NCBI GenBank assembly: GCA_947175215.1
Contig: CAMWLR010000017.1
Location: 1-35,916 of the forward strand
DNA length: 35,916 bases
Origin: an uncultured Porphyromonadaceae bacterium
GTDB lineage: Bacteria > Bacteroidota > Bacteroidia > Bacteroidales > Muribaculaceae
Reading direction: 5' to 3'
Shown: piece by piece, positions 24,031-35,916 of the stretch
Layout: each line of letters opens with the position of its first letter
How positions within the stretch are numbered: the first letter of the stretch is position 1
Made by a program: the position numbers and the translations under genes
The notes under the pieces: generated by a model
What the model was told of the DNA's origin: nothing
Database searches by the model: none
The model's input: the letters and a program-made list of their open reading frames with translations, nothing else

Positions 24031-24074
24031 AAAAAATCCGAAGAGCATCCGCTGTGACTGCGGGTGCTCTCCGG
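24031..24074 (-). terminator. Intrinsic terminator of the kinase/FHA cluster
   Basis: On the minus strand an 11-bp stem with one mismatch (arms 24060-24070 and 24042-24052), flanked by CCG/CGG pairing, is followed by six T. It starts 28 bases after the last gene of the cluster. Confidence 0.75.
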
Positions 24075-24101: not shown

Positions 24102-24962
24102 TTATTTGACGGTGAAGTAGCGGGTGCCGAGCAGTTTGCCGTCAATGTAGAACTCAAAGCGGTAGTCGCCGGCCTTCCAGTGTCCGGCCGTGTTGCTGCC
24201 CCAGCCGGTGAGCTTGACGTCGTTTGTGCCGGCGCTGAGATACTTGTTGACTTTGTATGAGTATCCTGAGGGTGAGTTTGACCCGGTGGTGAGGCCGTCG
24301 GGGCCATACATCTTTATGTAGATGTCATAGTTGCCGGCTTTCTTGACGGTGACGTTGATCTTGGGTGTGAGATACTTGGTGCGGTATGAGTAGATGTTTA
24401 CGCCGTAGTCGGTGATGGCGTTACCGTCAGCGTCTTCGTTACGTACCTGCGCCGAGTTGAATTTGACGGCGGGGCCTGACGATGATGTGTCGGGGTCGGC
24501 ATCGGCATAGCGTTCAAGCATCTCGGTCTTGGCTGTCTCGAGGGCTTTGAGGTATTTATAGAATGCATACTTAAAGTCTTCGGGCGAGTTGCTGTAACAT
24601 TCGGTCGAGTATGTCACGGTCTCTTTGTTTTTAGACAGGCACACCTTTACGCAGCGATACTCGCGGTTGATGTCGTTGATGATGCGCAGGATGGTGGGGA
24701 TGTCACAGTCGGTGGTGCCGCTGCCGGCACGGTGAAATTGGATGTAGACAGGTTTGGGCCCGGTGAAGTCGATCCAGAACAGGGTGCCCTCTTTTTTGAA
24801 GCAGAGGCTTTCATCATCTGAGTCGATGTAGGGTGAGAATCCCTCTTCCTGGAGGAATGACTTGAGGTTTGAGCGGAAGCGGAGTGCGTCAGAGTCGAGG
24901 TCGGCGTATGCCCGGCTGCTGAATGCCAGGATCGCCATCAGGATAAGAAGTAACTTTTTCAT
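24102..24962 (-). CDS. Secreted protein of unknown function, YbjN-like N-terminal and Ig-like C-terminal domains
   Basis: 286 residues with a signal peptide (KKLLLILMAILAFSSRAYA). Residues about 25-150 have the α/β pattern of YbjN / secretion-chaperone-like folds (LKSFLQEEGFSPYIDSDDE, LRIINDINREYRCVKV, FKYAFYKYLKALETAKTEM). The C-terminal part (about 165-286) is all β, ending HWKAGDYRFEFYIDGKLLG TRYFTVK, like an Ig-type binding domain. These fold suggestions come from pattern only. It is the last gene of the phosphosignalling cluster, 24 bases after the large kinase, and its export suggests a periplasmic partner of the kinase's extracytoplasmic repeats. Confidence 0.7.
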   Translation of the reverse strand: MKKLLLILMAILAFSSRAYADLDSDALRFRSNLKSFLQEEGFSPYIDSDDESLCFKKEGTLFWIDFTGPKPVYIQFHRAGSGTTDCDIPTILRIINDINREYRCVKVCLSKNKETVTYSTECYSNSPEDFKYAFYKYLKALETAKTEMLERYADADPDTSSSGPAVKFNSAQVRNEDADGNAITDYGVNIYSYRTKYLTPKINVTVKKAGNYDIYIKMYGPDGLTTGSNSPSGYSYKVNKYLSAGTNDVKLTGWGSNTAGHWKAGDYRFEFYIDGKLLGTRYFTVK

Positions 24963-24986
24963 AATGATATGATTGTTTATTGATTA

Positions 24987-27900
24987 TCAGAATGAACGGC
25001 CGGCTTTGTCAAGCAGGGTGATATATACCGACACGTTTGAGGGGACAAGTGAGCTGAACTCCTGGCGCAGGTAGGTCTGTGCCGTGCGGATATCATCTGC
25101 ATTGGCCTCATACTTAGAGATATTCTTGAGTTTGAATGTCATGCTCACTGATGATGAGCTGACCGAGATGCTGATCAGGTCGACATCATTGTCGATCACC
25201 ATCGGGCACTGGCGGGCCAGGTCGCGGAACTCATCTTGCCATGACGACCCATATGATGTGGGGGCGTAGGAATAAGAGGGGGCAGACTGGCCTGCGCCTG
25301 TGAAGTGGGGTTCGCCCCACGCCTCTTTCTTTTTATCCCAGATGCAGTATGCCACGAGAGTTTTCTCATCGGTGTAAGCGCTCAGTTTTTTTGGCGTCAC
25401 GTCATCGTCTTCATACTCAAAGACAAATTTATAGAACTGGCCGTCGGGGGCTTTGCCGTCAGGGCCTTTCTGCACGGCCGACAGAGGTTTGTCGCGTTTG
25501 TTGTATGTCGTTGTGACGGTGAGCATCTTCTTATCCATGTCATAGCTCTCGGTCTTGACCTCGTTACCGTGGTTGTCATACTCATAGGTGGTCTTGGTGT
25601 AGCCCGATATCTTATCTTTGGCGGGCTTGCCGTCTTTGTCATAGAAGCTCATCTCGGTGAGTTTGTTACGGTTGTCAAACACTGACACCTGTTTGTGATA
25701 GCCACGCAGAGATGAGTTGATCGGCGTACCCTTGCCGTCAAAGAGGGTTATGACTGTCTGGTTGCCGCGTGTGTCATACTCAAATTTAGCCTCGGCGACA
25801 TTCTCGGTAGTCTCTTTGACGGCGTTGCCCGAGGTGTCATAGTTGAGCCAGTGTACGAGCTGGTTGCGGTCGTTATATTCCTTGACTATCTTGTGAACGT
25901 TTGTCGATGACATCACGGGCTGACCGGTTGTAGACCAGAATGATGACTCGGTGAGGTTGCCGTAGGTGTCATGTTTATAACGCGCCTCATGATATTTGTT
26001 GGCGGGGTGTGTCACCTTGTTGCCGCTCTGGTCGGTATACCACTCGCGGGTCTTACGGTTGTTTGAGTCATACTCAGAGTGCTCGACGGCGGTGTTGCTC
26101 TGCAACTGCCCCTTGCCGGCATAAAAGCGAGACTCGGTGATGTTGCCGCGGCTGTCATATTTATACTCCTCGCCGCTGACCTGTGTGCCGGCGGTGTTGT
26201 ATCGATATACGGCGGTATTGTAGTTGGTGACAGGGTCATAGATAAACTCGGCTTTTGACCATCCGGCCTCGCAGTTTACGGGGTCACCCTTGGTGTCGCT
26301 CAATTTCATGAGGGTATTGTTGCCTCGCTGGTCATACTCATACTCGATAACCGCATAGCGGTTGTTGTGCATGACGGGTTTGCCGTTGATATCATAGTTG
26401 GTGAGTTTGAGCATGTGGCCCGCAAGGTCATACTCATATTTGACCGAGGCATATCCGTCCTGACAGGTAATCGGTTTGTCGTTCTCGTCAAAGTAGCTCT
26501 CCTCGATCTGCTGGCCGAGATTGTTATATTTAGAGCGGATGATGGCCTGATACCCGTTGATGGGGTTGAGTTTATTCTCCTTGTCGTAGAAGCGACGCTC
26601 GGTATAGTGGCCGACACTGTCGAGGGTAAACTCCATCTTGTGGTTACCCTCAAAGGTCTCGGTGGGTTTGATGTCACGGTCAAAGAAGGCATATCCGGTC
26701 TCGAGACCGCGGTTGTTGCGGTCGATGACAATGCGGCCCACCACCATATTGCCGTCGAGGGTGGCGTTGGTGATGCTGTCGTTAATGTCGAGATATGTCT
26801 GGCTGTGCACATAGCCGTTGTCGTCATAATCAAAAGCGATAGCCGAAAAACCCTCGGCAACGGTTGTCTTTTTGCCGTCAGTGCCATATACCTCGAGTTT
26901 GATAGTGTTACCCTTGTCGTCGAGTTGATAATGATAGGCGGCAGCGTTGACATCAGATCTCAGCATCGGCTCTCCCTCGAGATTAAAGTACTCCTCAGAG
27001 AGGATGTTACCGTATTTGTCGTGAGTGTGGGTAAAGTAAGGTACGTTTGTGCCGTCGCTCGACGGTGAGCCGTCGACAGTGAGATATTTGATTGAGTTCC
27101 AGTTGTCTTGATCGTCATAGGTATAGAGCTTGGTGGCCAGGCCGCGCTTGTTGCCGCGGGGCTGTCCGTCGAGCCCGATACTTGTTTTCTCGATCATGCG
27201 ATTGCGGTCGTCATACTTAAAGATGAAGCCGTGTATCATGTCGTCGTCGGTGACGTTGACATTCTGGAAAGTGGCGAACTCGATTTTATCGAATCGTCCC
27301 TTGTCATCATACGTCACGAGATAGCGGGTAATGGCACTGGCATCGGGTGTGATGTCGGTCAATGCCAGGGCTGTCTCGGTGGTCTTACCTTTGAGGGGCT
27401 TCTCGGTGCCGTGTTCGTCATCGCTCTTAAAGATGATGGTCTTGAGGTTGGCATCGAAGTCCATCACATAGACACATTCGCCACCCTGGTTATATACCTT
27501 GACATAGTCGACATTACCGTCGTTGGTATAGAAATAGGCCGCCTCGGTGAACTTGGTCTGCAACTCTGTCTCGCCGGGGACGACGACATTGCCGTGGGCA
27601 TTTACGCGCGTGATGTGACGCAGCTTGCCCCCTTTATACTCCATTTTGTATGTATATTGGCGGTGCTTCTGGTCAAATGCCGATACTTTACCGACACCTT
27701 GGGGTACACCCCACACCTCGGTGTAGTCTTTATAATAGCGCACCTTGGTGCGGTTGTAGTCCCAGAAAAACAGGCCCACGCAGAGCAGCAGAGCGGCGAT
27801 GCCGGTGGCGATATAGGCGATCTTATTGCGCTGCACGTTGCGGTTCCATGATCCGGTCTCGCGGTAATGGTCAATCAGCGAGCGCACGGTGGCGGCTGAC

Positions 27901-28634
27901 GGACGTTTGCGCGGATCAGGGTCGAGCATATCGGTGATAAGTTTCTTGACGGGCGCCGAGAGGTTGGCCTTGATGTTTATCAGGGCCGGATTCTGGGTCT
28001 GTGCAGCTCCGCCGAGCTCGCCGTAAGGGGGCTGACCGGTGGCCAGTTCGACCGCCGTAGCACCGAGCGACCAGATGTCAGAGGCGTGTTCGGGCTTAGC
28101 CTTATACACCTCGGGGGCCATGTAGGCGCGAGTACCGCCGATAGAGTCGGCGGCATCGCGGCGCGAGATGCCAAAGTCGGTGACCATAAAGTTACAGTTG
28201 TCATCGACCAGCACGTTGTCAGGCTTGATGTCCTGGTGTGTGATGTTATGGTCATGGAGATACTCGAGACCGGCGGCGACATCGCGCAGGAAGTGGAGGA
28301 TATCCTCTTCGTCGCATCGGCCGACCATCGAGGTGGCTGACCCGTTCTCGCAGAATGCCATCACCAGATAAGGAGACCCGTTGGCGATGTCAAACCCCTG
28401 AGGATGCAGCAGGTTGGTGTGGGTCATGTTGTAGACCATCGTGAACTCGCGCTGAAACTCAGCGATGCCGGCCGAGCCGGGCCCGAGGGTGTCGGGCTTA
28501 TATATCTTGACGGCCACGAGCATATCGCCCGCCTTGGTGTCGGTGGCTTTCCATACCTCGGCCGAGGCACCGCGGCCAATCAGCTCGATCAGCAGGTAAC
28601 GACCGTCAAATAATTGGTTTTCCGAAAGTTGCAT
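24987..28634 (-). CDS. Transmembrane Ser/Thr protein kinase with ~20 extracytoplasmic YD-type repeats
   Basis: 1215 residues. A Hanks-type kinase domain (about 13-262) has the glycine loop GRGASAEVW (20-28), Lys43 in VAVK, a catalytic loop THQDIKPDN with Asp135, DFG with Asp153, and MAPE. The residue before the catalytic Asp is Gln, so it is a non-RD kinase. One transmembrane helix follows (about 271-293, IAYIATGIAALLLCVGLFF). Residues about 442-1060 form roughly 20 repeats of 30-33 residues with the plan YDxxGNxxExxYxxxxGKPxxxxxGYA. These resemble YD/RHS-type β-repeats and the GKP-type repeats I recall in other eukaryote-like bacterial kinases. The last ~140 residues form a separate C-terminal region. 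The layout is a cytosolic kinase coupled to a large envelope sensor or scaffold; the ligand is unknown. It lies 24 bases from its neighbours on both sides. Confidence 0.88.
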   Translation of the reverse strand: MQLSENQLFDGRYLLIELIGRGASAEVWKATDTKAGDMLVAVKIYKPDTLGPGSAGIAEFQREFTMVYNMTHTNLLHPQGFDIANGSPYLVMAFCENGSATSMVGRCDEEDILHFLRDVAAGLEYLHDHNITHQDIKPDNVLVDDNCNFMVTDFGISRRDAADSIGGTRAYMAPEVYKAKPEHASDIWSLGATAVELATGQPPYGELGGAAQTQNPALINIKANLSAPVKKLITDMLDPDPRKRPSAATVRSLIDHYRETGSWNRNVQRNKIAYIATGIAALLLCVGLFFWDYNRTKVRYYKDYTEVWGVPQGVGKVSAFDQKHRQYTYKMEYKGGKLRHITRVNAHGNVVVPGETELQTKFTEAAYFYTNDGNVDYVKVYNQGGECVYVMDFDANLKTIIFKSDDEHGTEKPLKGKTTETALALTDITPDASAITRYLVTYDDKGRFDKIEFATFQNVNVTDDDMIHGFIFKYDDRNRMIEKTSIGLDGQPRGNKRGLATKLYTYDDQDNWNSIKYLTVDGSPSSDGTNVPYFTHTHDKYGNILSEEYFNLEGEPMLRSDVNAAAYHYQLDDKGNTIKLEVYGTDGKKTTVAEGFSAIAFDYDDNGYVHSQTYLDINDSITNATLDGNMVVGRIVIDRNNRGLETGYAFFDRDIKPTETFEGNHKMEFTLDSVGHYTERRFYDKENKLNPINGYQAIIRSKYNNLGQQIEESYFDENDKPITCQDGYASVKYEYDLAGHMLKLTNYDINGKPVMHNNRYAVIEYEYDQRGNNTLMKLSDTKGDPVNCEAGWSKAEFIYDPVTNYNTAVYRYNTAGTQVSGEEYKYDSRGNITESRFYAGKGQLQSNTAVEHSEYDSNNRKTREWYTDQSGNKVTHPANKYHEARYKHDTYGNLTESSFWSTTGQPVMSSTNVHKIVKEYNDRNQLVHWLNYDTSGNAVKETTENVAEAKFEYDTRGNQTVITLFDGKGTPINSSLRGYHKQVSVFDNRNKLTEMSFYDKDGKPAKDKISGYTKTTYEYDNHGNEVKTESYDMDKKMLTVTTTYNKRDKPLSAVQKGPDGKAPDGQFYKFVFEYEDDDVTPKKLSAYTDEKTLVAYCIWDKKKEAWGEPHFTGAGQSAPSYSYAPTSYGSSWQDEFRDLARQCPMVIDNDVDLISISVSSSSVSMTFKLKNISKYEANADDIRTAQTYLRQEFSSLVPSNVSVYITLLDKAGRSF

Positions 28635-28658
28635 AGTATTTTCGTGATAGTCAGGTTG

Positions 28659-29570
28659 TCAAAACATGTTAGTAATCCAGGCAAAAGCCACAAACTGTAT
28701 GCAGGCACAGATGATAAAGATGACCGCGCCGATATATATCCAGGTTTTCTGAGCCTTGAGCCATACGGGGAAGGCGAGACCGCGCGAGTTACGCCATCCC
28801 AGCGGATTGCCGTTGAGACCTAAGTAGGTGCAGAGAAACAGACTAAGCACCTGCCCAACATAGGGGATCAGCGACAGCGGTATGATGATCATCGGCCAGT
28901 AAATACGGTTGGCAAGCGCCCACACCCAAGAGCCGAGGAATGCGCCGAGATTAAATTTGCGCAGTTGCTCGTCTACCTCAGACTGGGTGAGTGAGTTGAG
29001 TTGACCGGCCTCGCTTGACGACCCCATGCCTGGGTTGTAACCCTGACGGTCTGTGCCGCCCACGGGTGGCATCTCACGCCCTGTAAATTGGGGGTTGCCG
29101 AAATTCTCGCGCATTGTGCCGCCATGAGGTGGCGATTGTCGCTGTGTACCGCCCCCCGGCTGGTCCATGCCGGGTCGCCAGGCACGTGTCTTACGCTCTG
29201 CCTCGACCGTGCCTTGTTGGGATACGGGCTGTCCGGCGGGATTGGCTGACGTACCGGCGGCTGCAAATCCGGCAGCCGAATTGGCATCAAAGCGCAGGGT
29301 GCGACGTTGCAGGTCGGGGAAGAAGTTGAGCAGTACGGGCCACGCAAGCAGATAGTCGCCGGCCAGCATTATCTGATCACCGTTGGTGAGGGTGACCTGA
29401 GCCTGCTTGACAAGGTTGCCGTTTATGACTGTGCCGTTAGAGCTGTGGTCGTTATAGACCAGCACTCCGTTGACCAGCTCGATTGTCGCGTGGTTGTTGC
29501 TCACGCGGGGAAACGCCTCGCTGACAACAATTCCGCTCTCGGGGTTACGCCCGATGGTCAGGGTTTTCAT
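28659..29570 (-). CDS. FHA-domain membrane protein
   Basis: 303 residues. The N-terminal FHA domain (about 1-75) has IGRNPESG, SNNH and SSNGT, the phosphothreonine-binding loops, with SNNH in place of the usual SRRH. A Gly/Pro/Gln-rich linker follows (about 105-200). The C-terminal domain (about 205-303) has a conserved-looking FNLGAFLGSWVWALANRIYW segment and several hydrophobic helices (MIIIPLSLIPYVGQVLSLFL, TWIYIGAVIFIICACIQF). The helices place it in the inner membrane with the FHA domain in the cytoplasm. It probably recruits a Thr-phosphorylated partner made by one of the two kinases of the cluster. Function otherwise unknown. Confidence 0.82.
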   Translation of the reverse strand: MKTLTIGRNPESGIVVSEAFPRVSNNHATIELVNGVLVYNDHSSNGTVINGNLVKQAQVTLTNGDQIMLAGDYLLAWPVLLNFFPDLQRRTLRFDANSAAGFAAAGTSANPAGQPVSQQGTVEAERKTRAWRPGMDQPGGGTQRQSPPHGGTMRENFGNPQFTGREMPPVGGTDRQGYNPGMGSSSEAGQLNSLTQSEVDEQLRKFNLGAFLGSWVWALANRIYWPMIIIPLSLIPYVGQVLSLFLCTYLGLNGNPLGWRNSRGLAFPVWLKAQKTWIYIGAVIFIICACIQFVAFAWITNMF

Positions 29571-29606
29571 AAAGAAATTATGATAATGATAGGTTAAGGA
29601 TTCGGG

Positions 29607-31136
29607 TTATTTGGCTTTCTTTTTGTAGACTTTTAGCTTGGTTGTCTCGTTGATGTTATCAAAGTCTACGTCAGGATTGAGGGCTTCAAGTTGATCATAA
29701 TTCATCCCGTGATCGAGGAGGATATTTCTTAGTCCTTTCGTCTCTACGGTTATAATCTCGATTTCGGGTCCGGGGTCAACATTCAGAGGGTTAGAGTCGT
29801 TCTCAGAGATCGAATCGTGATGGGTGGTGCCGGCAGATGCCCCGGCGGGCGCACCGGCTGGAGTCCCGGCAGCGGCCCCCGGGGGATTGGTACCGATACT
29901 CAGGTTTGAGAGAATACCTGCTACGGTCTGGCTTGCGTCGGTGCCGTTACCGCCGGCATAAGTTTCGGCGGTTGTGGCCTGCTGACCGATAATCTCGTTG
30001 TCTTGATTGTCGTTAGTCGTGGTGGTGCTGTCAGTGAGGGCCTCAATATTGTCGGCGTCGGCGGTGGTTGCGTCATCACTGTTTTTTCGCAATGACAGGA
30101 TGAGCAGGGTGGTGATAACCCCGACCACCACGCAAATGCAGGCTGTAAGGATTGTTTTCTTATCTTGCAGAAATGACTGTTTGGCCGGGGGGAGGCCCTG
30201 CTGCCCGGCGGGGTTTTGGCTCGGGGCTGCCTGACCGGGAGCACCGGGCGCAGGTGGTGGCAGGGGCATTCCGAACGGTGGCGGCAGCACACGCTTATCG
30301 GCCTTGACGCCACCCGATACAACCTGTAAGAGGGCGACCGTGACGTTATCTGCGCCCGATGCTGTCAATGCTCCGTCAATAAGATTCTTGGCCGTGGCGG
30401 TGAGGTCGGCGGGGATACCGGCAGCTAAGATTGCCTCGGTCTCATAATCGCGTATCATGCCGCAAAGCCCGTCGGTACACAGCAGTATGATGTCGCCGTC
30501 GGCAACGATGATCGGTTCGGGCAGCACATCGGCCTCGGCTGCGGTGGTCGAGTCTGACAGGCAGCGGGTGATGATATTGCTCTGAGGATAGTCAAACGCC
30601 TGATCGTCGGTGAGTTTTCCGGCGTCGACCAGTGTCTGCACGTATGAGTGGTCTTTGGTCAGACGGCGCAGCCCCGTGGCGGGGTTATAGAGATATGCGC
30701 GCGAGTCGCCGCACCACCCTACGTATAGTTTGTTGTCGATCAGCCAGGCGATCACCAGGGTCGTACCCATGCCGCGGGTCTCTGGGCGGGTAGCTGCCAC
30801 GGCCTTGATACGTCGGTCTGCCTCGGCGACTGCTGCCGCTATATAGCTGTTGATGTCGGCGACTGATGAGGTGTTTACACGGCTGATGGCCTCGGGCGAA
30901 AACACCTCTTTGACAGTGTCTATGGCGATCTGCGAGGCGACCTCACCGGCATTCATGCCGCCCATGCCGTCGGCGACAACGAGCAGCGTGCCGTTCTTGG
31001 TGAGCATACAGGCCTCGTTATTGACCCACCTCATAGGCGATACCGACAGGTCACGTGAGATCTGGAAGTTATCTTCGTTGTTTGTCCGGACCAGACCCAC
31101 GTCTGACATTCCGGCAACTTTGAATCTTAACTGCAT
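29607..31136 (-). CDS. PP2C-family protein phosphatase with transmembrane helix and LysM-like C-terminus
   Basis: 509 residues. The PP2C catalytic domain (about 1-265) has NNEDNF (Asp22), VVADGMGGMNAGE (Asp56), GMGTTLV, CGDSRAYLY, CTDGLCGM and SGADNVTV, all expected metal or structural motifs. A Pro-rich linker follows, then one transmembrane helix (about 326-347, ILTACICVVVGVITTLLILS). After it comes a low-complexity Thr/Ala/Gly region. The last ~45 residues (IITVETKGLRNILLDHGMNYDQLEALNP) look like a degenerate LysM motif, a peptidoglycan-binding fold. The phosphatase would thus face the cytoplasm and its tail the periplasm. It is the natural antagonist of the two kinases in the cluster. Confidence 0.88.
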   Translation of the reverse strand: MQLRFKVAGMSDVGLVRTNNEDNFQISRDLSVSPMRWVNNEACMLTKNGTLLVVADGMGGMNAGEVASQIAIDTVKEVFSPEAISRVNTSSVADINSYIAAAVAEADRRIKAVAATRPETRGMGTTLVIAWLIDNKLYVGWCGDSRAYLYNPATGLRRLTKDHSYVQTLVDAGKLTDDQAFDYPQSNIITRCLSDSTTAAEADVLPEPIIVADGDIILLCTDGLCGMIRDYETEAILAAGIPADLTATAKNLIDGALTASGADNVTVALLQVVSGGVKADKRVLPPPFGMPLPPPAPGAPGQAAPSQNPAGQQGLPPAKQSFLQDKKTILTACICVVVGVITTLLILSLRKNSDDATTADADNIEALTDSTTTTNDNQDNEIIGQQATTAETYAGGNGTDASQTVAGILSNLSIGTNPPGAAAGTPAGAPAGASAGTTHHDSISENDSNPLNVDPGPEIEIITVETKGLRNILLDHGMNYDQLEALNPDVDFDNINETTKLKVYKKKAK

Positions 31137-31174
31137 ATATTATTATATGTGTGTTGGGTGAATTATCAGAGATG

Positions 31175-32377
31175 TCAGAGCTCAGGCTCGGTAGCGGCAG
31201 TGTCGACATCGACCGTCTCGTCTGAGTCTGTCTGCTCAGAGTCTGTAGCGGTCGCCCGGTCGTTTGCCGGGGTGTCTTCGGCAGGGGGCGGAGTTATTGC
31301 CTCGTCGGCTTTGGGAGAGTCGATTTTGCGCAGTCTTGTGAGTTTACGCTCGGGAGCCTCGGGGGCGGCAGCCTTGACCGCCTGCTCGGCGTCAAAGATC
31401 TTTGACGGGTCGGTGAAGGGGAAGATCAGCGACCAGGTGCCGTCTTTCTGCACGCCGACACCTTGCAGATAGAAGTCCACGCGCCCTACGCCGGTCACCT
31501 CGGGGGTGAGATAGAGGGCGCCGATGGCGTTAGATATGCCGTTACCCAGGTCATAGAGTTTGGCGGGGTCATCCTCGACTTTAATCGGTTTGCGGGTGGC
31601 GGTGATCACCAGATTGGTATCTTTGGTGAGATCTTGAGAGGGGCTCTTGATTATCCAAACGAGATAACCCTCGAGATCGCCGGTTTTGCTTGAGGCATAA
31701 AATCCGTCTTTGGCCAGTGGTGAGGGGTCAGGCATCGAATAGAGCAGACCGGGATAGACATTACCCTTGAGGGCAGCGTTAAATGTGCGGGGGGTATACT
31801 CGGCATCCTCCGACAGGTCTGCCGAAGTGGTCTCGCCGATAAGACTGCCGCGAATGGTGGACAGTTCGGCCTTGGCTTCATCATAAGCGGTGTCAAAGAG
31901 CCACGGTGTGAGGGCCGGCTCGGTAAAGAGATAACCGCCGCGTATGGCGTAGGCGGGGGTGTAGGTGGCGCCGAGCTCTTTGTTGTCATTCTCGAAGCCA
32001 TAGAAATCGCCTGCCTCGTCGATAACGCCGTAAGGCTGACGTATGATGACTATGCCGTACTCACAGGCAGCCTTGACCAGTGTGGCGATGTCGTTGCGTG
32101 AGTTATAAGTGACTGATGCGGGGGCTTTATCCCCCTTGTCATCGACCTCGGCTGAGGGTGCATCGATCCTCGGCGGTGTCGTTTGGTCATCGGTCTCGGT
32201 GTCGCGGTCGGTTTTACCGCCGTTGAGAAAATCCTCGGTGAATTTGTGCTGACGTGTGCCGGGGCGTTTATAGCCGTCCTCGACTTTCTTGTCAGGGTTT
32301 TGGGCCGGGGTGACGGTGGCGTTGAGCGCGGGGATTGAGAGCGCGACGGCTGCTAAGAGGCAGATTATATTTTTCAT
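31175..32377 (-). CDS. Secreted protein of unknown function in the kinase cluster
   Basis: 400 residues with a signal peptide (KNIICLLAAVALSIPALNA) and no other membrane segment. A charged, probably disordered region (about 25-85) precedes a mixed α/β region (about 90-345), which includes VKAACEYGIVIIRQPYGVIDE, YLVWIIKSPSQDL and RVDFYLQGVGVQKDGTWSLI. The tail (about 350-400) is acidic and Thr/Asp-rich. I do not recognise a family. It sits between the FHA-protease and phosphatase genes with gaps of 57 and 38 bases, so it is probably co-expressed and a candidate periplasmic substrate or ligand for the protease or the LysM-like tail. Confidence 0.7.
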   Translation of the reverse strand: MKNIICLLAAVALSIPALNATVTPAQNPDKKVEDGYKRPGTRQHKFTEDFLNGGKTDRDTETDDQTTPPRIDAPSAEVDDKGDKAPASVTYNSRNDIATLVKAACEYGIVIIRQPYGVIDEAGDFYGFENDNKELGATYTPAYAIRGGYLFTEPALTPWLFDTAYDEAKAELSTIRGSLIGETTSADLSEDAEYTPRTFNAALKGNVYPGLLYSMPDPSPLAKDGFYASSKTGDLEGYLVWIIKSPSQDLTKDTNLVITATRKPIKVEDDPAKLYDLGNGISNAIGALYLTPEVTGVGRVDFYLQGVGVQKDGTWSLIFPFTDPSKIFDAEQAVKAAAPEAPERKLTRLRKIDSPKADEAITPPPAEDTPANDRATATDSEQTDSDETVDVDTAATEPEL

Positions 32378-32434
32378 GAGTGATAATGATTAGCTGTTAT
32401 GACGGGTTTTATGATAGTGGGTATATGAGTTGGG

Positions 32435-33940
32435 TTATCTGATAGATGAGATCGGCTCGATGAATCCGGTCGAGCGGCCTGCTATCGCCGAGGTGATGCC
32501 GACCACCACCAGCCGGCCTGACGGGTCGGTGATAAATACCGGGCCTCCCGACGATCCTTTTTCATAAGTGGTCTCGGTGGTGAGGATCATCCCCTCCTGC
32601 AAGCCGTCGGCAGCCACGGTGGCTGTGCCGTAGACAGGGTTTATATCATTGTAAGAGTTTGCACCCAGGCCTAAAGGGAAACTCAGTACGGTCAGTTTGG
32701 TGCCGCGGCTGAGCGAGCGTGACGCCTCGGGGCTGAATGGCAGCCCTCCCTTACGCCCTGCGCGGAAAGTGGCGAAGTCGCCCGACCCGATAGGCGCGAT
32801 AGTGACGCGCTCGCCTGACGAGGTGCGTCTCACCTGATCACCGCTGCGATTGGCTCGACATTCGCTTGACTTAAAGAGTATCTTGTCGCCGGTGGGTGAG
32901 ACGGCGCCTAAATATGCCACGACTTTGCCGCCGTTGCTGGCGATGAGGTTGAGCGAGAGCAGTTCGGGGTCAGCCCCGTCTGCGCCGTCGAGATAATACC
33001 ACGGCTCGACCACATGGCGCGCAGTGACAAAACGGCCGTCTGAGAGCAGGAATCCCGTGCCTGACCAGCCGGGTATCTCCCCCTCGTTGTTGCCGCACTC
33101 TATCTCATAATAGTCGCCGTCAGGGGTGGTCACCTCAAAACCGAGCGACATGACGAAGTATACGCTCTTGTCGGCGACTTTCATTGCATCGGCCGAGGCG
33201 GCGCCTCCGATCGATCCTCCGCCTCCCCCTGAGAATGTCGGCCAGTCAGATGTGCTGACGGGTGACGGGTCAACGGGCAGAACCTGCGCCCTCTCGGGGT
33301 AACCTGCAGTGTTGCCGCTGCCTGGAGTCTCCGCTGAGTTGCTCTGTTGCTGCTGTTGTTCAAGACTGTGAGCCACGAGATCGCCCAGACGGCGGTTGGC
33401 CGAGGCGAGGTCGATTATCTTCCAGATACCCAGACCGAGAGCTGCCACAACAAGCAGCGCGATGACCGCAAAGAAATAGCGGCGCGGATTGCCGGTGGCT
33501 CCGGCGGGAACTCCCGCAGGGGGGATCAGTCTCTGGCTGCGGGGGTCGCGAGGATTGCTGCGGGGTCGCGGCAATATGGCCGGAGCAGGTGCCCCGGCGT
33601 TGCGGTAATCGTCTTTGCCGGGGAAGATTATGGCCAGGCGCGGGCCGTCGGTAGAGAGTCTTATCTCATCGCCGTTGTGGAGATAGACGGGGGCGGTGAC
33701 ATGATGGCCGTTGACCAGGGTGGAATTGGTCTGAGAGAGAGGTTCGAGGATAAACTGGCCGCCGCTGCAACGTATTATGGCGTGGCGACGGCTTACGGTG
33801 GGATATTCGTCATAAAAGCGCACATCCGCCCCGGGATCACGCCCCAGCAGGGTGACCTCGGTCTCGACCGGCAGACGCGACCCGAACTGGTGCATCCTGT
33901 CTGAGTCATGATATTCAAGATAATATCTTATGGGGGACAT
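32435..33940 (-). CDS. FHA domain - transmembrane helix - trypsin-like serine protease fusion
   Basis: 501 residues. The N-terminal FHA domain (about 27-105) has LLGRDPGAD, SRRH and TNSTLVNG. A Pro/Arg linker leads to one transmembrane helix (about 156-176, FFAVIALLVVAALGLGIW). A Gln- and Gly-rich spacer follows, then a trypsin-fold domain (about 255-501). The triad is intact in order: His309 (VTARHVVE), Asp388 (SGDFATF) and Ser464 (KGSSGGPV). By topology the FHA domain is cytosolic and the protease periplasmic. Phosphothreonine binding inside could therefore control proteolysis outside. It follows the kinase-FHA gene by 12 bases, so these two are tightly coupled. Substrate unknown. Confidence 0.87.
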   Translation of the reverse strand: MSPIRYYLEYHDSDRMHQFGSRLPVETEVTLLGRDPGADVRFYDEYPTVSRRHAIIRCSGGQFILEPLSQTNSTLVNGHHVTAPVYLHNGDEIRLSTDGPRLAIIFPGKDDYRNAGAPAPAILPRPRSNPRDPRSQRLIPPAGVPAGATGNPRRYFFAVIALLVVAALGLGIWKIIDLASANRRLGDLVAHSLEQQQQQSNSAETPGSGNTAGYPERAQVLPVDPSPVSTSDWPTFSGGGGGSIGGAASADAMKVADKSVYFVMSLGFEVTTPDGDYYEIECGNNEGEIPGWSGTGFLLSDGRFVTARHVVEPWYYLDGADGADPELLSLNLIASNGGKVVAYLGAVSPTGDKILFKSSECRANRSGDQVRRTSSGERVTIAPIGSGDFATFRAGRKGGLPFSPEASRSLSRGTKLTVLSFPLGLGANSYNDINPVYGTATVAADGLQEGMILTTETTYEKGSSGGPVFITDPSGRLVVVGITSAIAGRSTGFIEPISSIR

Positions 33941-33952
33941 TCGCGTGTATTG

Positions 33953-35311
33953 TTAGATGTTGGTGAGTTGAGAGAGATCGGCCTGCTCGACCCTGAGTTT
34001 GGTGTCGCCGATCGAGATGATGTCGCCGATATGCAACCATATACCCTCACGATAAGCCTCGCGCGAGTTGACAAACGTGCCGTTGGTCGAGTCATGCCAT
34101 GGCTCGTCGGGGTCGTCGGCTACCCATTGGCCGTCGCGGATAAACCAGTATCCGTTTGACGGGTCGCGCTCAAGTGTGGCGTGGCGGCGGCTGACGTATG
34201 TCGTTCCCTCCTCGAGGATGTCAATGTCGTTGGTAGTCTTGAGGTCGGGACGTCCTAAGGTCAGGTAGTCGGTGCGCAGCGCATTGGCGAGGTTGTCGAG
34301 GAAATAGAGGCGACCGAACTGATCGCCGTGTACGACCCTCAGACAGATGTTGACCGCGGGTTGGCGGTTGTTGCCGATCTCTGCGGCGTAGTTATGCGAG
34401 TTGGCCGGCAGGGTGTCGATGATCGACTGAGGTTCGTAAGGGAGGGTGCGAAACGCATCATCGGCGCTCTGTATGCGTCGGCGGAAGTCGGGATGCAGGC
34501 AACCCTCGATAAACTGACACCATAGTCTTCCCTGCCCGTCGTTGAGCAGTGTCTGGCGATCCCACTCGCCGCGCTTGGCGCGTCCGAGATAATCGACCAG
34601 ATCTGAGTCTGAGTCAAGAGGGCCAAACGGCAGTTCACCCGTGATGAGCTGATAGGTCATCACCCCTAACGAGAAGATGTCGGTGGTGGGGAGTACGGTG
34701 GCTTCGCGGCGCGGGTCGGCCTGCTCGGGGGGCATATATGCGTATGTGCCGAATATCTGGCTCGGCTTACCCCCGCGTGACGATCGGGTCATACGACGGT
34801 TACGGTCGCCGGCGATGCCAAAGTCTGTCAATGCAAATGTGCCGTCACCTTTGATGAGTACATTCTCTGGTTTGAGATCTCGGTGCACCTTGCCGTTGGC
34901 GTGCAGAGCTCTAAGTCCCATGAGAGTGCAAGCGGCTACCTTGGGCATGTCGACGGCGGTGCGGCTGGCCAGCTGCAACAGGTCACCGCCGGGGCAATAC
35001 TCCATCACGATATACGGGTTGCCGGCGACGATGCCGTGATAATGCGAGCACACGAGATAGGGCGAGTCGATCTGGCCGGTCTCAAACTCCATATCAAAGC
35101 GGGCGATCAGCGGGGGGCGTACCTCGGCGGGTACTTCCCACAATTTTAGTAGCTTTAGGGCGAACTCGGCCGAGGGGTATCCCCCCTCGGCGGGTGTTTC
35201 GACCAGATACACCAGGCCGTAACTACCCTTACCGAGCAATTTTTTCACGCGGTAATAATCGTCAATGATGTCACCGGGCCGGAAGTCAATCTGTCGGGCG
35301 CTGTAATTCAT
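33953..35311 (-). CDS. Soluble Ser/Thr protein kinase with C-terminal FHA domain
   Basis: 452 residues with no membrane segment. The kinase domain (about 19-290) has GKGSYGLVY, Lys53 in ALK, HRDLKPEN with Asp145, TDFGIA and MPPEQ, so all catalytic residues are present and it is an RD kinase. The activation segment is rich in Ser/Thr/Arg (RRMTRSSRGGKPSQIFGT), with likely autophosphorylation sites. The C-terminal FHA domain (about 345-442) has LGRPDLKTTND, SRRHATLE and STNGTFVN. A kinase bearing its own FHA domain can bind its phosphorylated partners. It is the second complete gene of the cluster and probably the main activating kinase; this last point is inference. Confidence 0.92.
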   Translation of the reverse strand: MNYSARQIDFRPGDIIDDYYRVKKLLGKGSYGLVYLVETPAEGGYPSAEFALKLLKLWEVPAEVRPPLIARFDMEFETGQIDSPYLVCSHYHGIVAGNPYIVMEYCPGGDLLQLASRTAVDMPKVAACTLMGLRALHANGKVHRDLKPENVLIKGDGTFALTDFGIAGDRNRRMTRSSRGGKPSQIFGTYAYMPPEQADPRREATVLPTTDIFSLGVMTYQLITGELPFGPLDSDSDLVDYLGRAKRGEWDRQTLLNDGQGRLWCQFIEGCLHPDFRRRIQSADDAFRTLPYEPQSIIDTLPANSHNYAAEIGNNRQPAVNICLRVVHGDQFGRLYFLDNLANALRTDYLTLGRPDLKTTNDIDILEEGTTYVSRRHATLERDPSNGYWFIRDGQWVADDPDEPWHDSTNGTFVNSREAYREGIWLHIGDIISIGDTKLRVEQADLSQLTNI

Positions 35312-35344
35312 CTTGATCTGGGTAGTTGAGAGGTATGGGGTATC

Positions 35345-35379
35345 GGTTGCTGCTTAAGTTGGGTGGGTTGCTGCCTAAG
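35345..35379. repeat. 14-bp direct repeat with 21-bp period before the kinase-FHA gene
   Basis: GGTTGCTGCTTAAG (35345-35358) and GGTTGCTGCCTAAG (35366-35379) match at 13 of 14 positions and are exactly 21 bp apart. They fill most of the 73-base gap between the FHA gene and the kinase-FHA gene, ending 33 bases before the kinase start on the minus strand. This may be a small tandem duplication or a regulator site; no TAnnTTTG box is seen with it. Confidence 0.6.
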
Positions 35380-35384
35380 CGGGT

Positions 35385-35916
35385 TTATTCTTTCTCGTGG
35401 AAGATAAAGAGACGATTGCCCAACAGGATGATGTCACCCTCAGAGAGGACGTGGCCTGATTTGGCGGGATGAACAAAGGTTGTCTGCTGGTCAGAGAGGT
35501 CGGTGATGACCCACTTGCCGTCGCGACGTGCGATGGATGCCTGCTGACGTGAGGTGATCGAGAGGTTCTCGGGATCGGTGTTCGCGCGGTTGAGAATTGC
35601 CTCCTGACCCTCAAAGCTGAGATCGGTCGGAGCAACGGGTTCGTTGACCTTCTGGATAGGTGAGAGCGAGAAAGAGGGGTTTGTGACCGGGGCGGCAGCT
35701 GTGTAAACGTTGACCGTACCGCGGTATTTGGCGGGATCTTTAGCAGCGGGGGCTGCTGACTGACCCGGCATCGGAGCGTTGGCGGGTGCAGCGGCGACAG
35801 CGGGAGAGGGAGCTTTGGGCAACTGCGGTTCGGCTACCTCGGGCAGACCCACGACTGTGGGGCGATGCACCGGCTGCACAGGGCGGGGCGGTTGTGCCGG
35901 AGCGGGGGCTGCGGGT
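35385..35916 (-). CDS. FHA-domain protein, C-terminal part (5'-truncated by window edge)
   Basis: The minus-strand frame is open to the window's right edge, so the start is missing. The visible 176 residues begin with a Pro/Ala/Gln-rich, low-complexity region. They end with an FHA-like domain (about the last 80 residues: NLSITSRQQASIARRDGKWVI, DLSDQQTTFVHPAK, LSEGDIILLGNRLFIF). The phosphothreonine-binding loops are less canonical than in the other three FHA domains (SRQQ in place of SRRH, and no NGT). This may be a diverged or non-binding FHA domain, or it may bind a different partner. It is the most upstream visible gene of the cluster, so the cluster's promoter lies outside the window. Confidence 0.75.
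   Translation of the reverse strand, partial: PAAPAPAQPPRPVQPVHRPTVVGLPEVAEPQLPKAPSPAVAAAPANAPMPGQSAAPAAKDPAKYRGTVNVYTAAAPVTNPSFSLSPIQKVNEPVAPTDLSFEGQEAILNRANTDPENLSITSRQQASIARRDGKWVITDLSDQQTTFVHPAKSGHVLSEGDIILLGNRLFIFHEKE

Follow-up and report, generated by a model that had tools for sequence, protein, structure and literature searches.

Which task is served by eight closely spaced genes that join Ser/Thr kinases, a phosphatase and FHA domains to parts of the cell envelope? The question is raised by a locus of an uncultured Porphyromonadaceae bacterium (Muribaculaceae in the GTDB lineage) that fills positions 24102-35916 of the window, by which is meant the whole stretch of DNA analysed, i.e., the entire 35,916 bp of contig CAMWLR010000017.1 (C17) of the window genome (G000; GCA_947175215.1, an assembly of 2.19 Mb that is 92% complete). 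Genomes, locus stretches and contigs are designated by G, L and C numbers below. The reading favoured here, to which a probability of roughly 0.6 is given, is that the cluster would constitute one operon for a modular transmembrane Ser/Thr phosphorylation relay with a protease as its switched partner.

Gene content and conservation of the cluster

The features are given below in transcription order, with Pfam E-values and with transmembrane (TM) helices as residue positions.

35385..35916, minus strand: 3' part of the first gene, encoding the zinc-ribbon-FHA adaptor ZF (FHA 1.1e-5); the remaining N-terminal part is on contig C13
33953..35311, minus strand: KFHA, putative cytoplasmic Ser/Thr kinase-FHA hub (Pkinase 7.5e-34, FHA 1.1e-11; no TM helix)
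32435..33940, minus strand: FTRYP, FHA domain, one TM helix (158-176) and trypsin-like protease (FHA 4e-17, Trypsin_2 1.9e-11)
31175..32377, minus strand: SEC, putative secreted protein with a hydrophobic N-terminal segment (4-22), kept beside the protease
29607..31136, minus strand: PP2C-TM, PP2C phosphatase, one TM helix (329-347) and periplasmic tail (PP2C_2 6.9e-14)
28659..29570, minus strand: FHAtm, FHA protein with two C-terminal TM helices (228-246 and 278-296; FHA 1.4e-13)
24987..28634, minus strand: KIN2, kinase, one TM helix (272-290) and YD/RHS repeat ectodomain (Pkinase 2.8e-44, RHS 2.9e-6)
24102..24962, minus strand: YbjN-like putative secreted protein (YbjN 6.6e-5; signal peptide judged by eye, none being flagged by the hydropathy scan)
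24031..24074, minus strand: intrinsic terminator at the operon end, a fold followed by TTTTTT

An earlier sequence-only reading had described eight genes on one strand with gaps of 12-73 bases, and the open reading frames (ORFs) and the recomputed gaps (24, 24, 36, 38, 57, 12, and 73 bp by rising coordinate) bear this out. Its inventory of two kinases, one PP2C phosphatase, four FHA domains and a protease agrees with Pfam, which finds two kinases, one PP2C, four FHA domains, a trypsin domain, an RHS/YD repeat and YbjN. The terminator is likewise confirmed; positions 24038-24074 fold at -25.3 kcal/mol (z -5.8, 0/200 shuffles as good) and TTTTTT follows. The cluster end escaped a simple terminator scan and was found by the folding analysis. 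When it comes to the proposed fusions with envelope modules, the YD repeats on the kinase and the trypsin domain on the FHA protein are present, while no LysM family was detected in the tail of the window phosphatase. LysM was found in six of the 40 phosphatase tails scanned (the window and 39 of the 67 available relatives). A PDB sequence search returned no relative of SEC at E <= 1 and no significant match to the YbjN-like protein.

The active sites are kept in nearly all copies compared, the window copy being one row of each set; the roles of the scored catalytic and FHA residues are those we take them to have. In KFHA the catalytic lysine is found in 90/90 rows and D145 and D163 in 88/90 each, while its FHA domain retains the arginine in 87/90 and the serine, histidine and asparagine in all 90. 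K43, the HxD aspartate D135 and the DFG aspartate D153 of KIN2 are intact in 89/89, and the motif aspartates of the phosphatase, D56 and D263, in 83/83. Of the trypsin triad, H309 is conserved in 76, D388 in 77 and S464 in 74 of 80 copies. Topology was assessed by hydropathy scans, not by a trained predictor. No TM helix was found in ZF (84/84) and KFHA (91/92), and one in FTRYP (77/86), PP2C-TM (79/84) and KIN2 (87/108). The N-terminus of SEC resembles a signal peptide in 53/53 relatives, 51 of which were combined with the window copy in one comparison.

Two relatives out of 13 from the same genus, G004 and G013, have the whole cluster in the same order, so that the gene order, which had been proposed as a check, is conserved; in G004, KIN2 is split into two ORFs. 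The YbjN-like orthologs occupy the last place in both and are 73-74% identical. These genomes also help in completing the first gene, which is cut by the contig end. Positions 1-396 of C13 in the window genome encode the N-terminal part of ZF, followed by genes encoding an M18 aminopeptidase, an OstA/LptA-like protein and one further protein, in the order seen in G004. Since the gene halves match and this order is shared, we infer that C13 adjoins C17. With the N-terminal part of ZF lying next to the M18 gene, the cluster comprises eight genes. The full-length ZF proteins of G004, in which Pfam finds zinc ribbons and FHA, and G013 have 323 and 291 amino acids, and the M18 gene precedes both. 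The right flank, where a known system such as type VI secretion was to be looked for, thus holds the M18 and OstA/LptA-like genes instead, and no secretion gene was recognised among the next three genes on C13. ZapA and RNase Y genes likewise flank the cluster.

The M18 gene is present in 13 of 14 genomes of the genus. As the region 3' of it is variable, a comparison at this position yielded no clean empty site. In G008 a lone inverted gene encoding FHA-TM-trypsin is found at the M18 site (L079:9001-10398), and its neighbours include no other gene of the cluster.

Relatives were sought more widely using the C-terminal half of KFHA as query and one genome per species. This gave 170 relatives among 180 pattern stretches, of which the best 80 were kept. 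These are from Bacteroidota by title, except two metagenome-assembled genomes (MAGs) labelled Clostridia, and among the carriers whose records bear no MAG label are Bacteroides faecis MAJ27, Bacteroides sp. 519, Barnesiella sp. An22, and Phocaeicola sartorii. In P. sartorii JCM 17136 (L138) both KFHA and the FHA-trypsin gene are broken into two frames. Several contigs are common to the 80 loci and the genomes discussed above (L108 is from G004, L109 from G013, and others lie on identical contigs), and the two sets are therefore not independent. All five core genes, i.e., ZF, KFHA, FTRYP, PP2C-TM, and KIN2, lie on one strand in 61/80 loci, and many of the remaining 19 are short contigs. Operons were defined by a shared strand and gaps of at most 200 bp, which gave 79 (L121, without a KFHA label, was omitted). 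Across the loci, of the 370 gaps that separate labelled genes, 336 do not exceed 50 bp, and the median is 13. ZF is found in 75 operons and leads 57 of these; the FHA-trypsin gene is found in 66, PP2C in 64, KIN2 in 63, and SEC in 48, while FHAtm (22), the YbjN-like gene (20), a coiled-coil gene (7), and an ExbB-like gene (6) are rarer. The most frequent adjacencies are ZF-KFHA (74), FTRYP-SEC (47), and SEC-PP2C (46).

At E <= 1e-90, KFHA was found in 13/393 genomes of the order and 4/395 of the phylum, the window genome being part of both counts. Two carriers, G1047 and G1006, belong outside the order. G1047 has the permuted core ExbB-coiled coil-FTRYP-PP2C-ZF-KFHA-KIN2, and G1006 has ExbB-coiled coil-FTRYP-PP2C-KIN2, with KFHA found by search without an ORF label and no ZF label. 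A model of the FHA-trypsin protein matched 32/397 genomes of the family, from 13 of 30 genera, and in the part of these neighbourhoods that was examined there are three arrangements. Type A is that of the window. Type B consists of FHA-FHA-TM-trypsin, FHA, PP2C, kinase, small FHA and kinase-YD (G015, G017, G035, G149, G165, and G187), and its kinase-YD protein is 27-29% identical to KIN2 over 1,000-1,200 residues. Type C consists of FHA, two kinases, PP2C and FHA-trypsin; a small FHA gene separates the last two of these in G023 and G201, not in G136.

There is good support for a dedicated transmembrane phosphosignalling unit, as proposed earlier, and for its joint inheritance, since the order is conserved, the active sites are intact and the topology is consistent. 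Some observations weigh against the favoured reading. The cluster is absent from 11 of 13 relatives in the genus and is therefore dispensable. Thirteen of the 79 operons lack FTRYP and 31 lack SEC, some of these lying on cut contigs. The lone FHA-trypsin gene of G008, kept in place with no kinase genes next to it, is a further such case. In the FHA-trypsin protein of G197 (L097:7956-9734) all three triad residues are replaced, and proteolysis is therefore not always the output.

Exchangeable outer parts and accessory genes

The outer parts of the system differ among relatives. In 72 KIN2 ectodomains (the window and 71 of 83 others) RHS/YD repeats were found 11 times, Sel1 six times, TPR three times, and BACON, MORN and others once each. 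Five belong to the FGE-sulfatase class, as does TagR of Pseudomonas. Scanning 81 of 106 accessory proteins gave BACON (11), Sel1 (7), WG (5), and outer-membrane barrels (4) among the 25 of 76 families listed. The cassette looks like a receptor system, because the inner core is constant while the outer repeats are exchanged.

Some cassettes contain a MotA/TolQ/ExbB-family channel together with an N-terminally anchored coiled-coil partner (L046:11651-13332, L088:11338-12988, L196:14565-16135, and L203:8794-10421). L196 is from G1047, one of the two genomes outside the order, and the pair is found in the other, G1006, too (L197:15179-16812). The type B cluster of G035 is adjoined by a short second GldL/GldM pair and an OmpA-like protein (L043:14533-17474), the canonical GldM being encoded elsewhere in the genome. 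GldL/GldM was considered as a motor partner and set aside; three further loci of type B gave no such label, and the sole GldM of G015, like that of G017, lies on a contig other than that of the cluster, which speaks against the idea.

Type VI secretion, defence and other known systems

The literature drawn on includes PMC7159879, PMC11341870, PMC10781749, PMC4714493, PMC8195603, PMC12088040, PMC4348357, and PMC10482370. Among the closest known systems is the threonine phosphorylation pathway of type VI secretion systems (T6SSs), i.e., PpkA-PppA-Fha with TagQRST, in which a membrane Ser/Thr kinase, a PP2C-type phosphatase and an FHA reader are combined with sensing of envelope damage (PMC10482370, PMC4348357). 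The cluster similarly encodes a TM Ser/Thr kinase, a PP2C and an FHA protein together. It differs from the pathway, as far as described in those texts, by its two kinases, the zinc-ribbon-FHA and FHA-TM-trypsin proteins and the conserved secreted proteins. The main texts of two papers on Bacteroidota T6SSs contain neither the word kinase nor FHA, and a review of T6SS regulation has no word that starts with Bacteroid.

The absence of a secretion system nearby, stated in the sequence-only reading, holds for the window genome as tested; TssC was found neither there nor in the genus relatives G004, G008, and G013, and the right flank is of the M18/OstA kind. It does not hold for five relatives, G651, G666, G130, G640, and G723, in which KFHA is found inside or within 13 kb of T6SSiii genes; these point to a T6SS-like use that the earlier reading did not consider. 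In G651 (contig C1; L198, L210) ZF, KFHA and a kinase are part of a single same-strand run that also holds TssC, TssD, a VgrG-like protein, a ClpB-type ATPase, an M23 peptidase and a weak TssK. The run of G666 (contig C1; L205) has orthologs of several of these genes, with TssK barely above its cut-off and TssF below its own, and a TssC fragment is found at the end of a different contig. The run of G130 (contig C35; L221-L223), labelled by similarity to G651, comprises type C genes, ClpV, TssB, TssC, Hcp, VgrG, TssK, and TssF, followed by ZF, KFHA, a kinase and a WG protein. G640 and G723 have a type A cluster 8.3 and 9.4 kb from TssC. The runs of G130, G651, and G666 are candidates for a phospho-regulated T6SSiii, as judged from their gene content. 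Kinases and ZF-KFHA are present in all three, and the runs of G130 and G651 also hold same-strand PP2C and FHA-trypsin genes. That the genes beside ZF-KFHA in G651 and G666 make up a Bat (vWA/MoxR) operon was ruled out when Pfam gave T6SS genes.

The cluster of the window might accordingly be read as an orphaned pathway of the PpkA/PppA/Fha type whose proper job is to trigger T6SSiii, the apparatus being lost or unassembled in the window genome. The linkage in five relatives speaks for this, as do the five FGE-sulfatase ectodomains, TagR being of that class, and the enrichment of TssC, which is found in 5/30 genomes picked for their type A genes (not a random sample, and including the partial or split sets of G008 and G052) vs. 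4/149 genomes of the order (Fisher p 0.007). However, TssC was not found in the remaining 25 of these genomes, including the 99% complete G004 and G013, and of another 24 genomes, which have related FHA-trypsin or kinase matches, it was found in one, while the active sites of the cassette proteins are preserved. In a tree of KFHA the copies linked to T6SS genes fall into two distinct groups with 100/100 support each; one, of three rows, has a long branch (1.99), and the other has two rows. G130 carries a stand-alone copy besides the linked one. An orphaned pathway is considered unlikely. The cassette may work like the T6SS threonine phosphorylation pathway, but the window copy is not filed as a member, because no T6SS linkage was found for it. 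A role in defence, in which repeat receptors would sense infection at the envelope and the kinases or the protease would shut the cell down by analogy with the KKP system, is judged improbable as well. It would agree with the patchy spread, the swapped receptor domains and a tyrosine recombinase of about 400 amino acids whose gene precedes ZF by 276-353 bp in the same orientation in 4/80 loci (L110, L113, L114, and L147; one identified by Pfam, the rest through its BLAST group). Both kinases match PADLOC models such as mad6 and PD-T4-6. Between its SEC-like and PP2C genes (L046:8227-9011) the cassette of G052 has an ORF of 80 amino acids and a DUF6036/AbiEii-like nucleotidyltransferase gene, the latter of which speaks for defence; an AbiEii match is also seen in one accessory protein elsewhere. 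The PADLOC matches are, however, confined to the kinase domains, except for one weak match to the trypsin region; the remaining five proteins have none. Neither nucleases nor pores are among the commonest of the accessory families listed, which are binding repeats and outer-membrane barrels. No KFHA relative was found on viral contigs in 20 stretches, and matches in plasmids (2 records) and phages (25 records) cover the kinase domain at below 60% identity, with a query cover of at most 48% and 62%, respectively, among the matches listed. That unrelated signalling genes have become neighbours by accident is highly improbable. The left flanks do differ among relatives, but the order is kept in the genus and the core adjacency recurs in 79 operons as well as outside the order, and the association of the genes appears far beyond chance.

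The absence of specific relatives from viral contigs, plasmids and phages also led to the rejection of a prophage or plasmid origin. KFHA is 88% identical between a MAG titled Bacteroides and Barnesiella sp. An22. A tRNA-borne island was rejected as well, no tRNA being found in 33 of 34 loci (29 of the 80 and five others); L131 has a tRNA-Phe.

Envelope signalling in Actinobacteria involves the PknB/PASTA kinase, PstP and FhaA/FhaB. These resemble the cluster in having a transmembrane kinase and a PP2C with envelope domains, and FHA readers. However, the PASTA kinase model NF033483 gives the two cluster kinases 121.6 and 111.5 bits against a curated cut-off of 450, the Stp1/IreP model NF033484 gives the phosphatase 206.4 bits against 230, and no PASTA, RodA or penicillin-binding protein is found among the eight genes. 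HtrA/Do proteases are defined by trypsin and PDZ domains; FTRYP has no PDZ match and is an FHA-TM-trypsin protein instead. The vWA-linked system of kinase, zinc ribbon and PP2C is presumably the one named the TerY-P triad. Conflict systems of this kind combine a kinase with zinc ribbon and a PP2C, and some have trypsin-like peptidases (PMC7159879). The cluster shares these traits, but has no vWA, MoxR or EAD domain. KKP consists of PfkA, PfkB, and PfpC; it was searched for as kinase genes of 900-1300 bp neighbouring a PP2C gene, PfkA has a cold-shock domain, and the system is prophage-borne (PMC11341870). Two kinases, one of them with FHA, and a PP2C are common to both, but the kinase genes of the cluster measure 1359 bp (KFHA) and 3648 bp (KIN2) and are not neighbours, no protein of the cluster has a cold-shock match in Pfam, the phosphatase has a TM helix, viral contigs yielded no relatives, and the flanks are those given above. 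In the open literature no paper title or beginning of an abstract was found that describes the cluster, most subscription journals being outside the coverage.

A proposed relay and its meaning

If the cluster encodes a phosphorylation relay, KIN2 would be the sensor, its variable periplasmic repeats (YD here) detecting the state of the envelope. KFHA would be the cytoplasmic hub, and the two kinases would phosphorylate each other as well as FHA-binding partners. ZF and the membrane FHA protein would read phosphothreonine and assemble the complex, while the membrane-bound PP2C with its periplasmic tail would reset it. FTRYP may be recruited or switched by phosphorylation, which would give a periplasmic protease gated from the cytoplasm, and SEC, encoded beside it, is the likeliest partner or substrate. 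The analysis itself shows which genes are present and in what order, that their active sites are conserved, their topology by hydropathy and the T6SS linkage in relatives. A single transcript, the direction of signalling, the protease as output, SEC as its partner and envelope state as the signal are what we infer. Regulated periplasmic proteolysis would fit as output, because of the FHA-TM-trypsin fusion with a triad kept in most copies, and the stand-alone form probably acts through its FHA-anchored periplasmic protease. In some relatives the kinase-FHA unit may instead, or in addition, be wired to the T6SSiii apparatus.

It is tentatively proposed that these loci belong to a family of plug-in cassettes in Bacteroidota, with a constant core of two kinases, PP2C and FHA proteins and with swappable receptors, wired to FHA-TM-trypsin, to an ExbB/MotA-like channel with coiled coil, or to T6SSiii; the odds of this broader picture may be put at a little under even. 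If true, this would mean for Bacteroidota both signalling by a receptor-kinase unit and control of T6SSiii by phosphorylation, neither of which was found described in the open literature searched. The unit is compact and recurs in named Bacteroidota strains, and its candidate output is a membrane protease addressed by a phosphothreonine-binding domain. The link to T6SSiii provides a concrete hypothesis for how that weapon may be controlled in some Bacteroidota.

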